Below are positions 7,350-17,853 of a stretch of 64,000 nucleotides of DNA, in pieces. Numbering within the stretch: the first letter of the stretch is position 1; each line of letters opens with the position of its first letter. The DNA lies in the NCBI GenBank assembly GCA_000335735.1, contig AMYY01000004.1, positions 1-64,000 of the forward strand. The letters are read 5' to 3'. The translations under genes and the position numbers were made by a program. The notes under the pieces were generated by a model that did no database searches, was not told the origin of the DNA, and saw nothing but the letters and a program-made list of their open reading frames with translations. This DNA is from an alpha proteobacterium L41A (GTDB lineage: Bacteria; Pseudomonadota; Alphaproteobacteria; Caulobacterales; Caulobacteraceae).

Positions 7350-10331
7350 CTATCGCCGGAGCCTCACGCGGAGGCGACGGGCGCGCTCCTTGAAAGCGAA
7401 CTCGCCGCCTTCGAGGATGTCACAGACCGTCTTGCGGATTGTCTGGTTCTCGAGGCCGCCGCTCATGTAGGTGATCGGGGGAAGGCTCCCGGCCGGATGA
7501 GGTCCCGACTCCGCGACGATGATCTGATCCGCATCGGTGTTGATCACCAGGTTCGCGTTGTGCGTGACCATGATGACCTGCCGTTTCCGTTTGGCGGAAA
7601 TGAAGAGTCCGACGAGCTCCTCGAACACCGACTTGGGATCCAGGTTTTCCTCGGGCTGATCGATGATCAAGGGACGATCATCCCCTTCGTCGAGCGCCAG
7701 ATAGAGCAGCAGAAGGACGATACCGCGCGTTCCCGGAGACAGTTTCCGGATGTCGATTCCGTCGTAGGCGATGCCGTAGCGGATCTCGAGGTGGTCGGTG
7801 CTGAAGAGCCAGAGGGCGAACCGCTTCAACCACGCACGCATCTCGACGGGATCGTTGGTCGGCACCGGCGAATGCTGGAGCAAATCCTTCTGGTAGGCGT
7901 CGCGGAACGTGATCATCGCCGCCGCCACGTCCTCGGCGCTTCCACTCTCCCAGGCAGGCCCCAGCTGAGCCTTGGCGGCGTCGATCAGGGCGCCGCGGCC
8001 GCGGAACGGCCCCTGTTTGCGGAGGTCGAGAAGCCCCTCTTCGGCGGCACTGGCCCAACGCTCGACGTCGGCGACCCGCGAGACGGAGAAGGTGAGCTTC
8101 TTCAGGGTGCCGGGCGAGCTCGCCAGACGCTCCATCAGCGGGCGATAGAGGTCTTCGAGCACCGTCTGTTCGGCGACGAGCGCGGCAAAAGCGCGTTGGT
8201 AGGCGGCGTCCCGTTCAAGGTCGAGGGCCTTGATCCGGTCGGCTGCGCCTTGCGCTTCCTTGAGCCGTTCTTTCGCCGCCTCGAGCGCTGCGGTCTCGAT
8301 CGTGATCTTCTGCGTGAGCTCGCTATAGCGCCGCTGGATGTCGCGGTCTGCGCTGATCAGGCCCTCGAGCCGGGTCATCTCGGCCTCGAGCAGAAGCAGC
8401 GGCAAGGCAGAGAGGTCTGCATCCGCCGCGATCAAGGGGGTCCCCGGATCCTGTTGAGGGGGCGGCGGGGCGCCACGCAGCCGGGCGATCTCGGCATCGG
8501 CCCACTTCACATAGCCGACCAGATTGTCATCGACCTTGCCCTTGTAGTCGAGCAGGAAGGCGGCCCATTGGTCGGGGGTCATGAAGCCTTCGCGGTGGCG
8601 CGCCATCATCGCCCTCAGCGCTTCCGGCGCGCCCGTCGCCCGCATTGCGCCCACCTCGGACTGCACCGCCAGGAAGGCCTGGCGCTGGGCGACCAGGGTC
8701 CGGTTCTTCGTCCGCAGCGCCTCAGCCGCGCCGAACAGTGCGGTGTGCCGCGCGACGTTGGTCTCACTGTCCTTGGCGACCAGCTTGGCGCGATCGGTCG
8801 TGTAGGCGTTAATGAGGTTGGTCTTCTGGAGGATATGGGCTTCATACGCGCCCCGGAGCTTGTCCTTCTCATGCTCGAGGCCGATGCGCTCGGACATGGC
8901 GGCGATGGCCTCCACCTCTCTCGCTCTTGCGAGGCTGTGGAGCCTGGTCCGCCCCTCCCGCAGCTCAGCGAAATCGACCGCGCCTTCGCGTGTTGAATAC
9001 GGGTGCGCCTCGAAGATAACCCGTTCGATCTCTCGCAGGAGGGCGTCCGTCATCCCGCTCGACGAGCAGAGCTCCTCGACGAACTGCTGCGACAGGTAGC
9101 GTGCGCGCGGATAGTTCAGGGGATCGTTCGCGTCTCGCCCGTCGAGGAAACGGTTTGCGCTGTCGCCGCCCGCCCATTCAACGGTGATCGTCTCCTCGCC
9201 GATCAGCGGCCGTGCTCGGGCAAGGAAGGAGGCACTCACGCCTTTCTGGTCCTGCCAGACGACTGGGGAGACCGCGTCGCATCCTGCAGCGATCATGTCC
9301 GCCAAGGCCGTCTTGCCGGAGCCTCGCGCACCGATGATGGCGACCAATCCGGGGTTCAACTGGATCTCGGGGGTGACAATCCAGTCCGCACCCGCCGTTC
9401 GCACCGACGAGATGACCTGTGACGGCGTCGCGGCGGCTGGTGGTTCGGCGCCGACATGGGCGCGACCACCTGGGTCGATGCACGCCTGGCGAAGCGCGTC
9501 GAATTCAAGGCCGCCCTTGATCCAGGAGAAGCGATCTCCGAAGGGGGCTCCCACGTCATCGGCCTTGTGCGCGTCACTGCCGTGGAGACAGGGTTTGAGG
9601 CCATTGTAGCGAGATCGGAGCGCCGCTTCGTCCAACGCCTTTCGTCCCAGCCAGAAGTCGCGCTGAGCGTCACTGCTGGCGAAGATCACATGGGCGAAGC
9701 GTTCGATCTCCTGGCGGGTGACCTGATCGGCCGCTTCCCGAACGCCCGCAGTGCCGTCCCCGGAGCCGCCGGCGACGGCGATGAGAACATTGGCCCGAGC
9801 CCAGGCGTCCTCGTCCCAGACCGTGCGAAGCTGGTCGAAACTGACCTTGAACTGTGTCGCTCCATGCTCGAGAGCTGCGCGCTCCTCCAACTGCGGGCCC
9901 TTGTCCCGACGCCCCAGTCGAATGAGCTCTGACCGGGTGCAGTCGAAGCGGTCATCGAACGCTCTGAACTCCAGCCGGGCCAGGAAGCGCTGGATACGCT
10001 CTACGTGATCGTCGTCCTCGGGACTGACGAGCAGATGCATGTTGACGAAGCCGGTCTTCGCCGCGACGTGCAGACGCAACTCGACGTTCGGAAAAACAAG
10101 CTGGACGTTTGGCAGACGCCCCTCGTCCCGACGCCTGCGAAGCACTTCCTCATACGTGTCCGTGACGTAGTAGTCCGTAACGGCCACAGCTTCGATGAGA
10201 GGCGTGGCCGCTTCCAGCGCCGTGAGATAGTCCTCCCAAGCGGTTGGCCCACTGAACTGATTGTTGAGCACCGTCCCCGGCGCGTGGATATGCGGCTCCC
10301 ATCGCCGCCATTCCGAACCCCGACCCAGCAT
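7350..10331 (-). CDS. PHP-domain/SMC-type ATPase (TrlF-like), 993 aa
   Basis: The N-terminal 300 residues form a PHP phosphoesterase domain: HIH at 14-16, VTDYY, FPNVELRL, and LHGSDAHK near 252. An SMC/ABC ATPase follows, with Walker A GARGSGKTAL near residue 335, a long coiled-coil middle (about 440-800), the signature LSPGTRG near 865, Walker B LIIDQPEENLD near 888, and an H-loop VTHNANL. This layout is that of TrlF-family proteins, which are often found in defence islands; the substrate is unknown. The SD is GGAGGGG just before ATG 10331. It stands alone on the minus strand, downstream of no obvious partner. A nucleic-acid-processing defence role is inferred. Confidence 0.88.
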   Translation of the reverse strand: MLGRGSEWRRWEPHIHAPGTVLNNQFSGPTAWEDYLTALEAATPLIEAVAVTDYYVTDTYEEVLRRRRDEGRLPNVQLVFPNVELRLHVAAKTGFVNMHLLVSPEDDDHVERIQRFLARLEFRAFDDRFDCTRSELIRLGRRDKGPQLEERAALEHGATQFKVSFDQLRTVWDEDAWARANVLIAVAGGSGDGTAGVREAADQVTRQEIERFAHVIFASSDAQRDFWLGRKALDEAALRSRYNGLKPCLHGSDAHKADDVGAPFGDRFSWIKGGLEFDALRQACIDPGGRAHVGAEPPAAATPSQVISSVRTAGADWIVTPEIQLNPGLVAIIGARGSGKTALADMIAAGCDAVSPVVWQDQKGVSASFLARARPLIGEETITVEWAGGDSANRFLDGRDANDPLNYPRARYLSQQFVEELCSSSGMTDALLREIERVIFEAHPYSTREGAVDFAELREGRTRLHSLARAREVEAIAAMSERIGLEHEKDKLRGAYEAHILQKTNLINAYTTDRAKLVAKDSETNVARHTALFGAAEALRTKNRTLVAQRQAFLAVQSEVGAMRATGAPEALRAMMARHREGFMTPDQWAAFLLDYKGKVDDNLVGYVKWADAEIARLRGAPPPPQQDPGTPLIAADADLSALPLLLLEAEMTRLEGLISADRDIQRRYSELTQKITIETAALEAAKERLKEAQGAADRIKALDLERDAAYQRAFAALVAEQTVLEDLYRPLMERLASSPGTLKKLTFSVSRVADVERWASAAEEGLLDLRKQGPFRGRGALIDAAKAQLGPAWESGSAEDVAAAMITFRDAYQKDLLQHSPVPTNDPVEMRAWLKRFALWLFSTDHLEIRYGIAYDGIDIRKLSPGTRGIVLLLLYLALDEGDDRPLIIDQPEENLDPKSVFEELVGLFISAKRKRQVIMVTHNANLVINTDADQIIVAESGPHPAGSLPPITYMSGGLENQTIRKTVCDILEGGEFAFKERARRLRVRLRR

Positions 10332-14264: not shown

Positions 14265-14279
14265 GAAGCCGCACCCCCA

Positions 14280-14303
14280 TAAGTCGTCAAAGTTGACGAC
14301 TTA
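14280..14303. promoter_or_regulatory. HipB-type operator O1
   Basis: A 24-bp dyad with perfect 10-bp arms TAAGTCGTCA and TGACGACTTA around AAGT. It is the most upstream of four similar sites in front of hipB, 40 bp from O2. Its position just after the CoiA-like stop codon could also let HipB act on upstream read-through. Confidence 0.8.
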
Positions 14304-14319
14304 GTCGAGAAATTCGCGA

Positions 14320-14343
14320 TAACTCGTCACCTATGACGAATTA
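14320..14343. promoter_or_regulatory. HipB-type operator O2
   Basis: A 24-bp dyad, arms TAACTCGTCA and TGACGAATTA around CCTA, with one mismatch between the arms. It is 46 bp from O3. Confidence 0.8.
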
Positions 14344-14365
14344 TCACGCTAAACCTACCCGCTCA

Positions 14366-14389
14366 TAATTCGTCATTGTTGACGAATTA
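14366..14389. promoter_or_regulatory. HipB-type operator O3
   Basis: A 24-bp dyad with perfect arms TAATTCGTCA and TGACGAATTA around TTGT. Its right arm contains the likely -35 hexamer TTGACG, so bound repressor would block RNA polymerase. It is 41 bp from O4. Confidence 0.85.
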
Positions 14390-14408
14390 ACCCTCAGAGT
14401 GGTAGATA
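14379..14408 (+). promoter_or_regulatory. predicted hipBA promoter
   Basis: TTGACG (14379-14384) and TAGATA (14403-14408) are spaced by 18 bp. Transcription would start near 14415, giving a leader of only about 15 nt, which fits the lack of a Shine-Dalgarno before the hipB ATG at 14430. O3 covers the -35 and O4 begins at the end of the -10. Confidence 0.6.
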
Positions 14409-14430
14409 ACTCGTCGAAAGTGACGAATTA
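14407..14430. promoter_or_regulatory. HipB-type operator O4
   Basis: A 24-bp dyad, arms TAACTCGTCG and TGACGAATTA around AAAG. It runs from the -10 region up to the A of the hipB start codon, so it covers the expected transcription start. Confidence 0.82.
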
Positions 14431-14783
14431 TGAAGATCACCAATCTCACCACGGATCAGACGGTTCTGGCCGAACTCGGCCGAAGAACGGCCGACTATCG
14501 ACTGCAACGTCATATGACCCAATCGCAGTTCGCCGAAGCCGCGGGCGTTTCCAAGAGCACCGTTGAGCGTCTCGAAGCGGGCGAGTCCGTCCAGCTCATC
14601 AATCTCATCCGGGCCCTGCGCGTCCTCGACAAGCTTGAGGCCTTCGATCGCTTCCTGCCGGAGGCTCCGGCCAATCCCGTCGATCTTCTGGAGCGCCACG
14701 GCAAGACCCGACAGCGCGCCCGGCCGGACGCCCGACCGGACGAAGACGTCGGTCAGCCCTGGCGTTGGGGAGACGACGCATGA
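14430..14783 (+). CDS. hipB: HipB-like antitoxin, Xre-family repressor
   Basis: A 117-residue protein with a helix-turn-helix at about 29-52 (MTQSQFAEAAGVSKSTVERLEAG). The C-terminal 40 residues are rich in Arg, Pro and Asp and probably flexible. Its stop overlaps the hipA ATG (ATGA), the usual hipBA coupling. HipB neutralises the HipA kinase and represses its own operon; the four dyads in front of the gene, the last touching the ATG, are the likely binding sites. There is no Shine-Dalgarno, so the mRNA may be nearly leaderless. Longer than E. coli HipB (88 residues). Confidence 0.88.
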   Translation: MKITNLTTDQTVLAELGRRTADYRLQRHMTQSQFAEAAGVSKSTVERLEAGESVQLINLIRALRVLDKLEAFDRFLPEAPANPVDLLERHGKTRQRARPDARPDEDVGQPWRWGDDA

Positions 14784-17543: not shown

Positions 17544-17853
17544 TGGTGCGGGCGGCCGGGGTCGAACCGGCATGGGCAATGCCCGACGGATTTTCATACC
17601 ACTTCGACTTTCGCCGCCGCCCCGCTCCGGAGAGCGAGGACGTTCGTGGTCTGGACTATCCCTTCGTCATAGCCCGAAGGCCTTAGACGCCGCCCGTCTA
17701 GTCTCTACACCTTCCCGTCCGGAGACGGGCTTGGCTCGGGATCGCCATCTGACAGGGTTCCCCGACTTTGAGCGGTTCTACGTCCGGGATTTCCCCCAGC
17801 GCACTCAATCCTCAGCTTAAGTCCGTTGCGTCTACCAGTTTCGCCACGCCCGC
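17544..17853 (-). tRNA. tRNA-Leu(UAA) with intron
   Basis: Exon 1 is 17819-17853 and exon 2 is 17544-17594, 86 nt when joined. The acceptor stem GCGGGCG pairs with CGCCCGC, followed by A73 and an encoded CCA. The anticodon stem ACGGA/TCCGT closes a CTTAAAA loop, anticodon UAA. A long variable arm (GGGC att GCCC) and a GCCGG/CCGGC T-stem complete a type II Leu tRNA. The intron breaks the gene between U34 and A35. A sigma-70-like promoter lies 13 nt upstream of the 5' end. Confidence 0.93.
17595..17818 (-). ncRNA. group I intron in tRNA-Leu(UAA)
   Basis: The intron is 224 nt, inserted after U34 of the anticodon, and ends in G, as group I introns do. Exon ACUU can pair with a GAGU guide about 12 nt into the intron with a U-G wobble at the 5' splice site (P1). 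The core words CGATCCCGAGCCAAG, AAGGTGTAGAGACTA and GGATAGTCC match the conserved regions around P4-P6 and P7, and GACTA/TAGTC gives P7. There is no room for a homing endonuclease. The insertion site is the one used by cyanobacterial and plastid tRNA-Leu introns. Confidence 0.9.

Follow-up and report, generated by a model that had tools for sequence, protein, structure and literature searches.

A group I intron in the spare tRNA-Leu(UAA) gene of an integrative island as a possible shield against the island's integrase

What does a group I intron do in the anticodon loop of a tRNA gene from an alphaproteobacterium? Such an intron of tRNA-Leu(UAA) is present in cyanobacteria and plastids, according to the available text of PMC4476775. 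In the window, by which we mean the whole 64,000-nt stretch of L41A contig AMYY01000004.1 that was analysed, a tRNA-Leu(UAA) gene interrupted in its anticodon loop had been predicted from sequence. Its coordinates and anatomy proved correct, and the gene lies on the minus strand (Table 1). The sequence bears out an insert of 224 nt separating U34 from A35, two exons (35 and 51 nt) and an encoded CCA, and ARAGORN identified the joined exons as tRNA-Leu(taa). The same program reported no tRNA at this gene in the window or in the unspliced gene. Among Brevundimonas genomes, it likewise detected 0 of 22 unspliced intron genes, while all 22 pairs of joined exons were read as complete tRNA-Leu(taa). 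The Rfam model RF00028 matched the insert at 39.4 bits (E 1.4e-8, model positions 1-253) and nothing else in the 3.11-Mb genome, which makes the insert its sole group I match. Because this score is lower than the curated gathering score of 50, a default Rfam scan remains silent, and the scan at the gathering threshold indeed reported nothing for the insert. We regarded the lower-threshold Rfam matches to mir-935, CRISPR-DR28, icd-II and Transposase-2 as fortuitous. Words similar to the promoter-like CTTGGC and GCTATAGAG were also read 5' of other intron tRNAs.

To obtain a consensus structure with RNAalifold, we aligned 26 homologues chosen out of 35. P1 with a U-G pair at the 5' splice site, originally proposed as a possibility, was present in all 26, and all 26 kept the terminal G of the intron. 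The group I core words behind the first assignment were conserved across the alignment, as were the exons. Other RNAalifold helices could be read as P2-P6, P8 and P9. Twenty-seven of the 82 pairs, with the tRNA arms counted in, were altered on both sides yet still paired, including pairs in P2, P3, P6 and P8. Both sides of the proposed P7 (GACTA/TAGTC) were found in every homologue, and because they are invariant (26/26), this helix stands as conserved but contributes no covariation evidence. The assignment of the insert as a group I intron of the tRNA-Leu(UAA) anticodon loop is thus well supported, and homology together with covariation suggests that it should self-splice, yielding a normal tRNA.

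Table 1. Features of the island and its host flank, in window coordinates.
Feature	Start	End	Strand	Basis
Island part beyond the spare tRNA, extending past the contig start	1	17543	.	Pfam, PADLOC; extent inferred from the far end on C2
3' exon of spare tRNA-Leu(UAA), 51 nt, CCA encoded	17544	17594	-	Sequence; ARAGORN on spliced gene
Group I intron, 224 nt, between U34 and A35, 3' terminal G	17595	17818	-	RF00028; covariation in 26 homologues
5' exon of spare tRNA-Leu(UAA), 35 nt, last base U34	17819	17853	-	Sequence; ARAGORN on spliced gene
Promoter-like CTTGGC - 17 nt - GCTATAGAG, 5' of spare tRNA	17866	17897	-	Sequence reading
Tyrosine integrase gene of the island, 434 aa	17903	19207	-	PF00589 weak match; relatives
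Two CTTACACA-type repeats between tRNA half and integrase gene	19234	19253	-	Sequence
5' half of displaced resident tRNA-Leu(UAA) through core GACTTAAAA (19313-19305); one island end	19305	19343	-	Sequence; matching 3' half on C2
M28 peptidase gene, host flank at native tRNA-Leu(UAA) site	19403	20836	-	PF04389

For this genome, the ordinary reading, in which the intron belongs to a host gene inherited vertically, was abandoned once a second 5' half of tRNA-Leu(UAA) appeared. An island has integrated here, and the intron gene is its spare tRNA, standing beside an integrase gene and the displaced resident 5' half, a context that the original prediction had missed. The resident tRNA-Leu(UAA) is intronless and divided in its anticodon loop, with the halves on two contigs. 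Its 5' half equals the 5' exon of the spare except for two anticodon-stem bases, and unrelated DNA follows GACTTAAAA. Its 3' half, at C2:124404-124437 outside the window, is preceded by TGTGTGAC and completes the complementary stem GCAGA/TCTGC. The sequence common to both island ends is GACTTAAAA. As shown by genome comparison, the island sits inside GACTTAAAA, the anticodon loop of the host tRNA-Leu(UAA), and separates the two native halves: the 5' half lies next to the integrase gene, the 3' half at the opposite end of the island. The M28 peptidase gene adjoins tRNA-Leu(UAA) in genomes with the island, in empty ones and in those with a resident intron. The CTTACACA-type repeats, to which similar words occur at the far island end, are possible integrase arm sites.

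The integrase matched PF00589 with an E-value of 4.6e-4 and 20.4 bits (Pfam cut-off 27.1). Its C-terminal region was strongly conserved in eight integrase relatives, including an RHTY motif and a tyrosine, which we take to be the catalytic residues of a tyrosine integrase. A phage origin of the island was rejected, as none of 50,697 phage records contained an integrase relative. Four of 72,556 plasmid records had one, at 44-52% identity, and IMG/VR yielded three loci with a relative, the stretches covered holding a full intron tRNA in no case. Two other islands (G074 and G083; L151, L163) may be immobile, since the matched part of each integrase frame contains one stop codon.

The window cargo, assigned with Pfam and PADLOC, includes RES, HipA/HipB-like, CoiA-like, PHP/AAA, ParB-like and nucleotidyltransferase/HEPN genes, and looks like defence genes. 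The PHP label of the AAA protein comes from sequence reading and a PADLOC match to Ppl (E 2.6e-31); this 993-aa AAA ATPase (window 7350-10331) is a candidate defence protein. Directly before the HipB-like gene, four copies of a 27-nt repeat surround TCGTCA/TGACGA palindromes at 40-46 nt spacing (14278-14431) and possibly form an operator array. The 12-kb island of G074 (L133 7937-9599) encodes SMODS nucleotidyltransferase-domain and AbiEii-like proteins near its spare tRNA.

We surveyed Brevundimonas for the same arrangement. Named records with these islands belong to this genus, and an island of this kind is present in Brevundimonas aurantiaca DSM 4731 and B. variabilis DSM 4737 (L177, L190). 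A pattern match was found in 56 of 61 relatives, the gene being intronless in most sequences read, and in several genomes the M28 peptidase gene lay beside the intronless gene. RF00028 matched 22 of 131 Brevundimonas genomes, once each and every time in tRNA-Leu(UAA). An integrase of at least 70% identity occurred in 15 of the 131, and the intron tRNA was found in all 15 of these vs 7 of the 116 others (Fisher p 9e-15, uncorrected for relatedness). Fourteen of the 15 island genomes showed the order native 5' half, integrase, intron tRNA on a single contig; in G124, the native 5' half and most of the integrase were on another contig than the intron tRNA. The native 3' half was located in 14 of the 15, the exception being G069. 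Ten islands had both ends on a single contig, and these were 12 to 90 kb long. When rejoined, the native halves gave a complete tRNA-Leu(taa) with 5/5 stem pairs in all 13 genomes tested. The native halves vary among genomes and the spare is nearly identical, which indicates that the spare arrived with the island and that the native gene was previously whole. The split target tRNA with its halves at the two ends and an integrase beside one of them, both halves being found in 14 of 15 genomes, is the arrangement of a genomic island. No tRNA fragment in attP restores the target gene; the native gene remains in two halves, and the island brings a separate intron tRNA.

The remaining seven genomes with an intron tRNA lacked an integrase of the family (E 1e-30). 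Their intron tRNA is at or near the native locus, with the M28 gene adjoining in five of the seven, and the gene order downstream is mixed. We considered whether these resident intron tRNAs form one clade, but the tree gives no such grouping. They fall outside as well as among the island copies on a weakly resolved tree with long branches. A transfer of the intron tRNA between island and native locus, in one direction or the other, is therefore probable.

The original prediction held that growth should depend on splicing if the genome had no other UAA tRNA. We found no other intact UAA tRNA in the L41A genome, so the decoding of UUA should depend on splicing. Growth itself may or may not depend on it: UUA accounted for 0 of 537 leucine codons in 13 window genes. 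Allowing up to two mismatches, a pattern search likewise found no intact intronless UAA gene in the 22 intron-tRNA genomes; its UAA matches were split halves, and the remainder were CAA genes or chance.

To look beyond the genus, we scanned 84,980 species genomes; of the 373 integrase relatives obtained, the best 80 were analysed. The intron tRNA was found behind the integrase in 23 of these 80 loci. Their hosts were Brevundimonas, Phenylobacterium, Hyphomonas and Glycocaulis, together with bins labelled Sphingomonadales, Micavibrio, Gammaproteobacteria, Proteobacteria, Alphaproteobacteria and Terriglobia. The targets of the 80 loci were tRNA-Leu(UAA) in 25, tRNA-Leu(CAA) in 48, tRNA-Leu(UAG) in two and tRNA-Ser(UGA) in two, with three lacking a visible target; a few CAA loci (e.g. 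L204, L208) were labelled from only the core or the spare, and the native halves of L212, L214, L216, L221 and L226 were assigned by individual reading instead of the automatic table. A spare was visible in 24 of the 25 UAA islands (L179 stops at the integrase). Twenty-three of the 24 had the intron, one had C32->T (L186), and none contained an uninterrupted CTTAAAA. The CAA spares, visible in 39 of 48 islands, were intronless. C32->T was present in 31 of these 39, a change at position 30 in four, a change at position 31 in three and no change in one; for L184, L185, L187, L198 and L244, the rows take in tRNAs as far as 7 to 11 kb from the integrase. Hence the 7-nt loop is kept in eight of the 39 CAA spares, namely L228, L229, L232 and L235 (position 30), L248, L250 and L251 (position 31) and L198, whose tRNA with unchanged loop is 7.5 kb away. 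Among the CAA genes listed for the class, T32 was found in 20 of 94, a background drawn from 150 rows of a longer list with a pattern that fixes neighbouring bases, is blind to intron genes and may include spares. Against this background, the frequency of C32->T in CAA spares (31/39 vs 20/94 listed) gave p 5e-10, uncorrected for relatedness. The corresponding figure for UAA genes, 0/56, was set aside with its p-value owing to the limits of the pattern and the listing. Both tRNA-Ser(UGA) islands (L246, L252) split their target and carry a complete tRNA-Ser(UGA) with an unchanged loop. On the integrase tree, which has long branches, well supported branches force at least seven changes of the UAA label, implying that the pairing of a UAA target with an intron spare recurs.

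Some relatives depart from the UAA arrangement. In Brevundimonas, a sister integrase of about 57-63% identity splits tRNA-Leu(CAA) (L165, L166, L167, L170, L243-L247), and G140 has one UAA-type plus one CAA-type island. The tRNA-like spare behind the integrase of G131 (L167) has a 6-nt anticodon loop and looks degenerate. In L168, L238 and L242, integrase relatives lie beside tRNA-Leu(UAG) with the island oriented opposite to the tRNA, and a complete tRNA-Leu(UAG) is found behind the integrase.

How might the intron serve such an island? For a tyrosine integrase, the overlap sequence of attP must match that of attB, as learned from lambda. The island splits the host tRNA-Leu(UAA) in the anticodon loop, does not rebuild it from an attP fragment, and carries behind the integrase gene a complete tRNA-Leu(UAA), which would replace the split host gene. 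Either an intron between CTT and AAAA or C32->T leaves GACTTAAAA broken in the DNA. With about 220 bp of intron lying between the halves of the crossover core, the DNA of the spare would no longer be a target of its own and sister integrases. The spare would then be neither split nor drawn into wrong recombination, while splicing would heal the RNA. The sister islands that split tRNA-Leu(CAA) mostly show a point change, C32->T, in the same loop. We give a probability of roughly 0.6 to this reading, in which the intron gene is the spare tRNA-Leu(UAA) of an integrative island, the intron would shield it from the island integrase and splicing would restore the tRNA. Whether the explanation extends to a widespread island family, with a self-splicing ribozyme acting as recombination camouflage and the core broken in DNA by the intron (UAA, healed in RNA) or by C32->T (most CAA), seems to us an even bet. 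The eight CAA spares and both tRNA-Ser(UGA) islands that retain the loop count against such camouflage and imply that breakage of the loop is no strict need. The seven genomes with an intron tRNA and no integrase also speak against it. In addition, all introns are homologous, and the intron cases are therefore not independent.

The genus association (15/15 vs 7/116) and the excess of C32->T in CAA spares over the listed genes favour a shielding role, and leave as its main rival a simple capture. An ancestral island could have picked up a tRNA-Leu(UAA) already bearing the U34/A35 intron; the spare would still replace the split gene, the intron would be useless to the island, and it would overlap the crossover core only since both lie in the anticodon loop. 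The homology of all introns agrees with capture, and so do the spares with an intact loop and the seven island-free genomes in which the intron tRNA lies at the native locus or close to it, some of which branch outside the island copies. The intron site is moreover one known from cyanobacteria and plastids (PMC4476775, in its available part, for the intron). Capture alone, however, accounts poorly for the sole visible intronless UAA spare (L186), which has C32->T as do 31 of 39 CAA spares vs 20 of 94 listed class genes, or for the recurrence of the intron spare after at least seven forced target changes on the integrase tree. We regard it as a real but minority chance. It appears improbable that the intron entered a resident tRNA gene as protection from islands, which acquired it later. 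For archaea, such a role has been suggested in print (PMC4090602 and PMC3293823, as far as their available text goes), and none of the seven resident-intron genomes has a family integrase at E 1e-30; however, only about 0.8 islands would be expected there by chance, so that the zero is no evidence, and 15 of the 22 intron tRNAs are on islands. A nonfunctional relic in cells living without a UAA tRNA, to which the RF00028 score under the curated cut-off and the absence of UUA from 13 window genes might point, is very hard to reconcile with exons, P1, core words and terminal G conserved in 26 homologues, a complete spliced tRNA in 22 of 22 genes and no other UAA tRNA found in those 22 genomes.

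If the shielding explanation is true, a bacterial intron would have a clear job, namely hiding a gene from a DNA integrase while its RNA is left intact, and the old proposal of tRNA introns as guards could be tested using a single integrase, a single attP and several variants of one tRNA gene. The findings also show how an island can occupy a tRNA gene with no patch in attP, and they reveal tRNA genes of a kind that a standard finder overlooks (ARAGORN, 0/22 unspliced). Among the open-licence PMC papers covered, mainly through titles and abstract openings, we recognised no report of a bacterial link between intron, tRNA and island, nor, within the same scope, of such introns in Alphaproteobacteria, Brevundimonas or bacterial tRNA-Leu.

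The U34/A35 insertion site is that of the cyanobacterial and plastid tRNA-Leu(UAA) intron, which has similar core words. Both introns are group I and lie in tRNA-Leu(UAA). The likeness is one of site and core words, whereas the intron described here occurs in the spare of a mobile island beside an integrase, in Alphaproteobacteria and a few other groups. For tmRNA, group I introns are reported in the T-loop, and islands use the tmRNA gene as a target (PMC11915505, available part); there too, a group I intron occupies a tRNA-like gene often targeted by islands, but unlike here, that part of the source draws no link between intron and island. Archaeal tRNA introns were proposed to protect against integration (Randau and Soell 2008, cited by PMC4090602 in its accessible text), and for Caldiarchaeum, the part available of PMC3293823 describes one inferred case in which the intron came with a mobile element and may serve it. 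As in these archaeal cases, the intron interrupts a tRNA attachment site; the archaeal introns are, however, removed by proteins, and the Caldiarchaeum case is one inferred event, whereas we find a group I intron in the spare at 23 of 80 integrase loci. In Islander, as far as presented in the available text of PMC4383910, islands target tRNA genes and a fragment in attP restores the target gene. The islands described here resemble them in the tyrosine integrase, the crossover in the anticodon loop and the split tRNA gene at the ends, and differ in that the split target is left unrepaired, its place being taken by a separate and complete tRNA gene.
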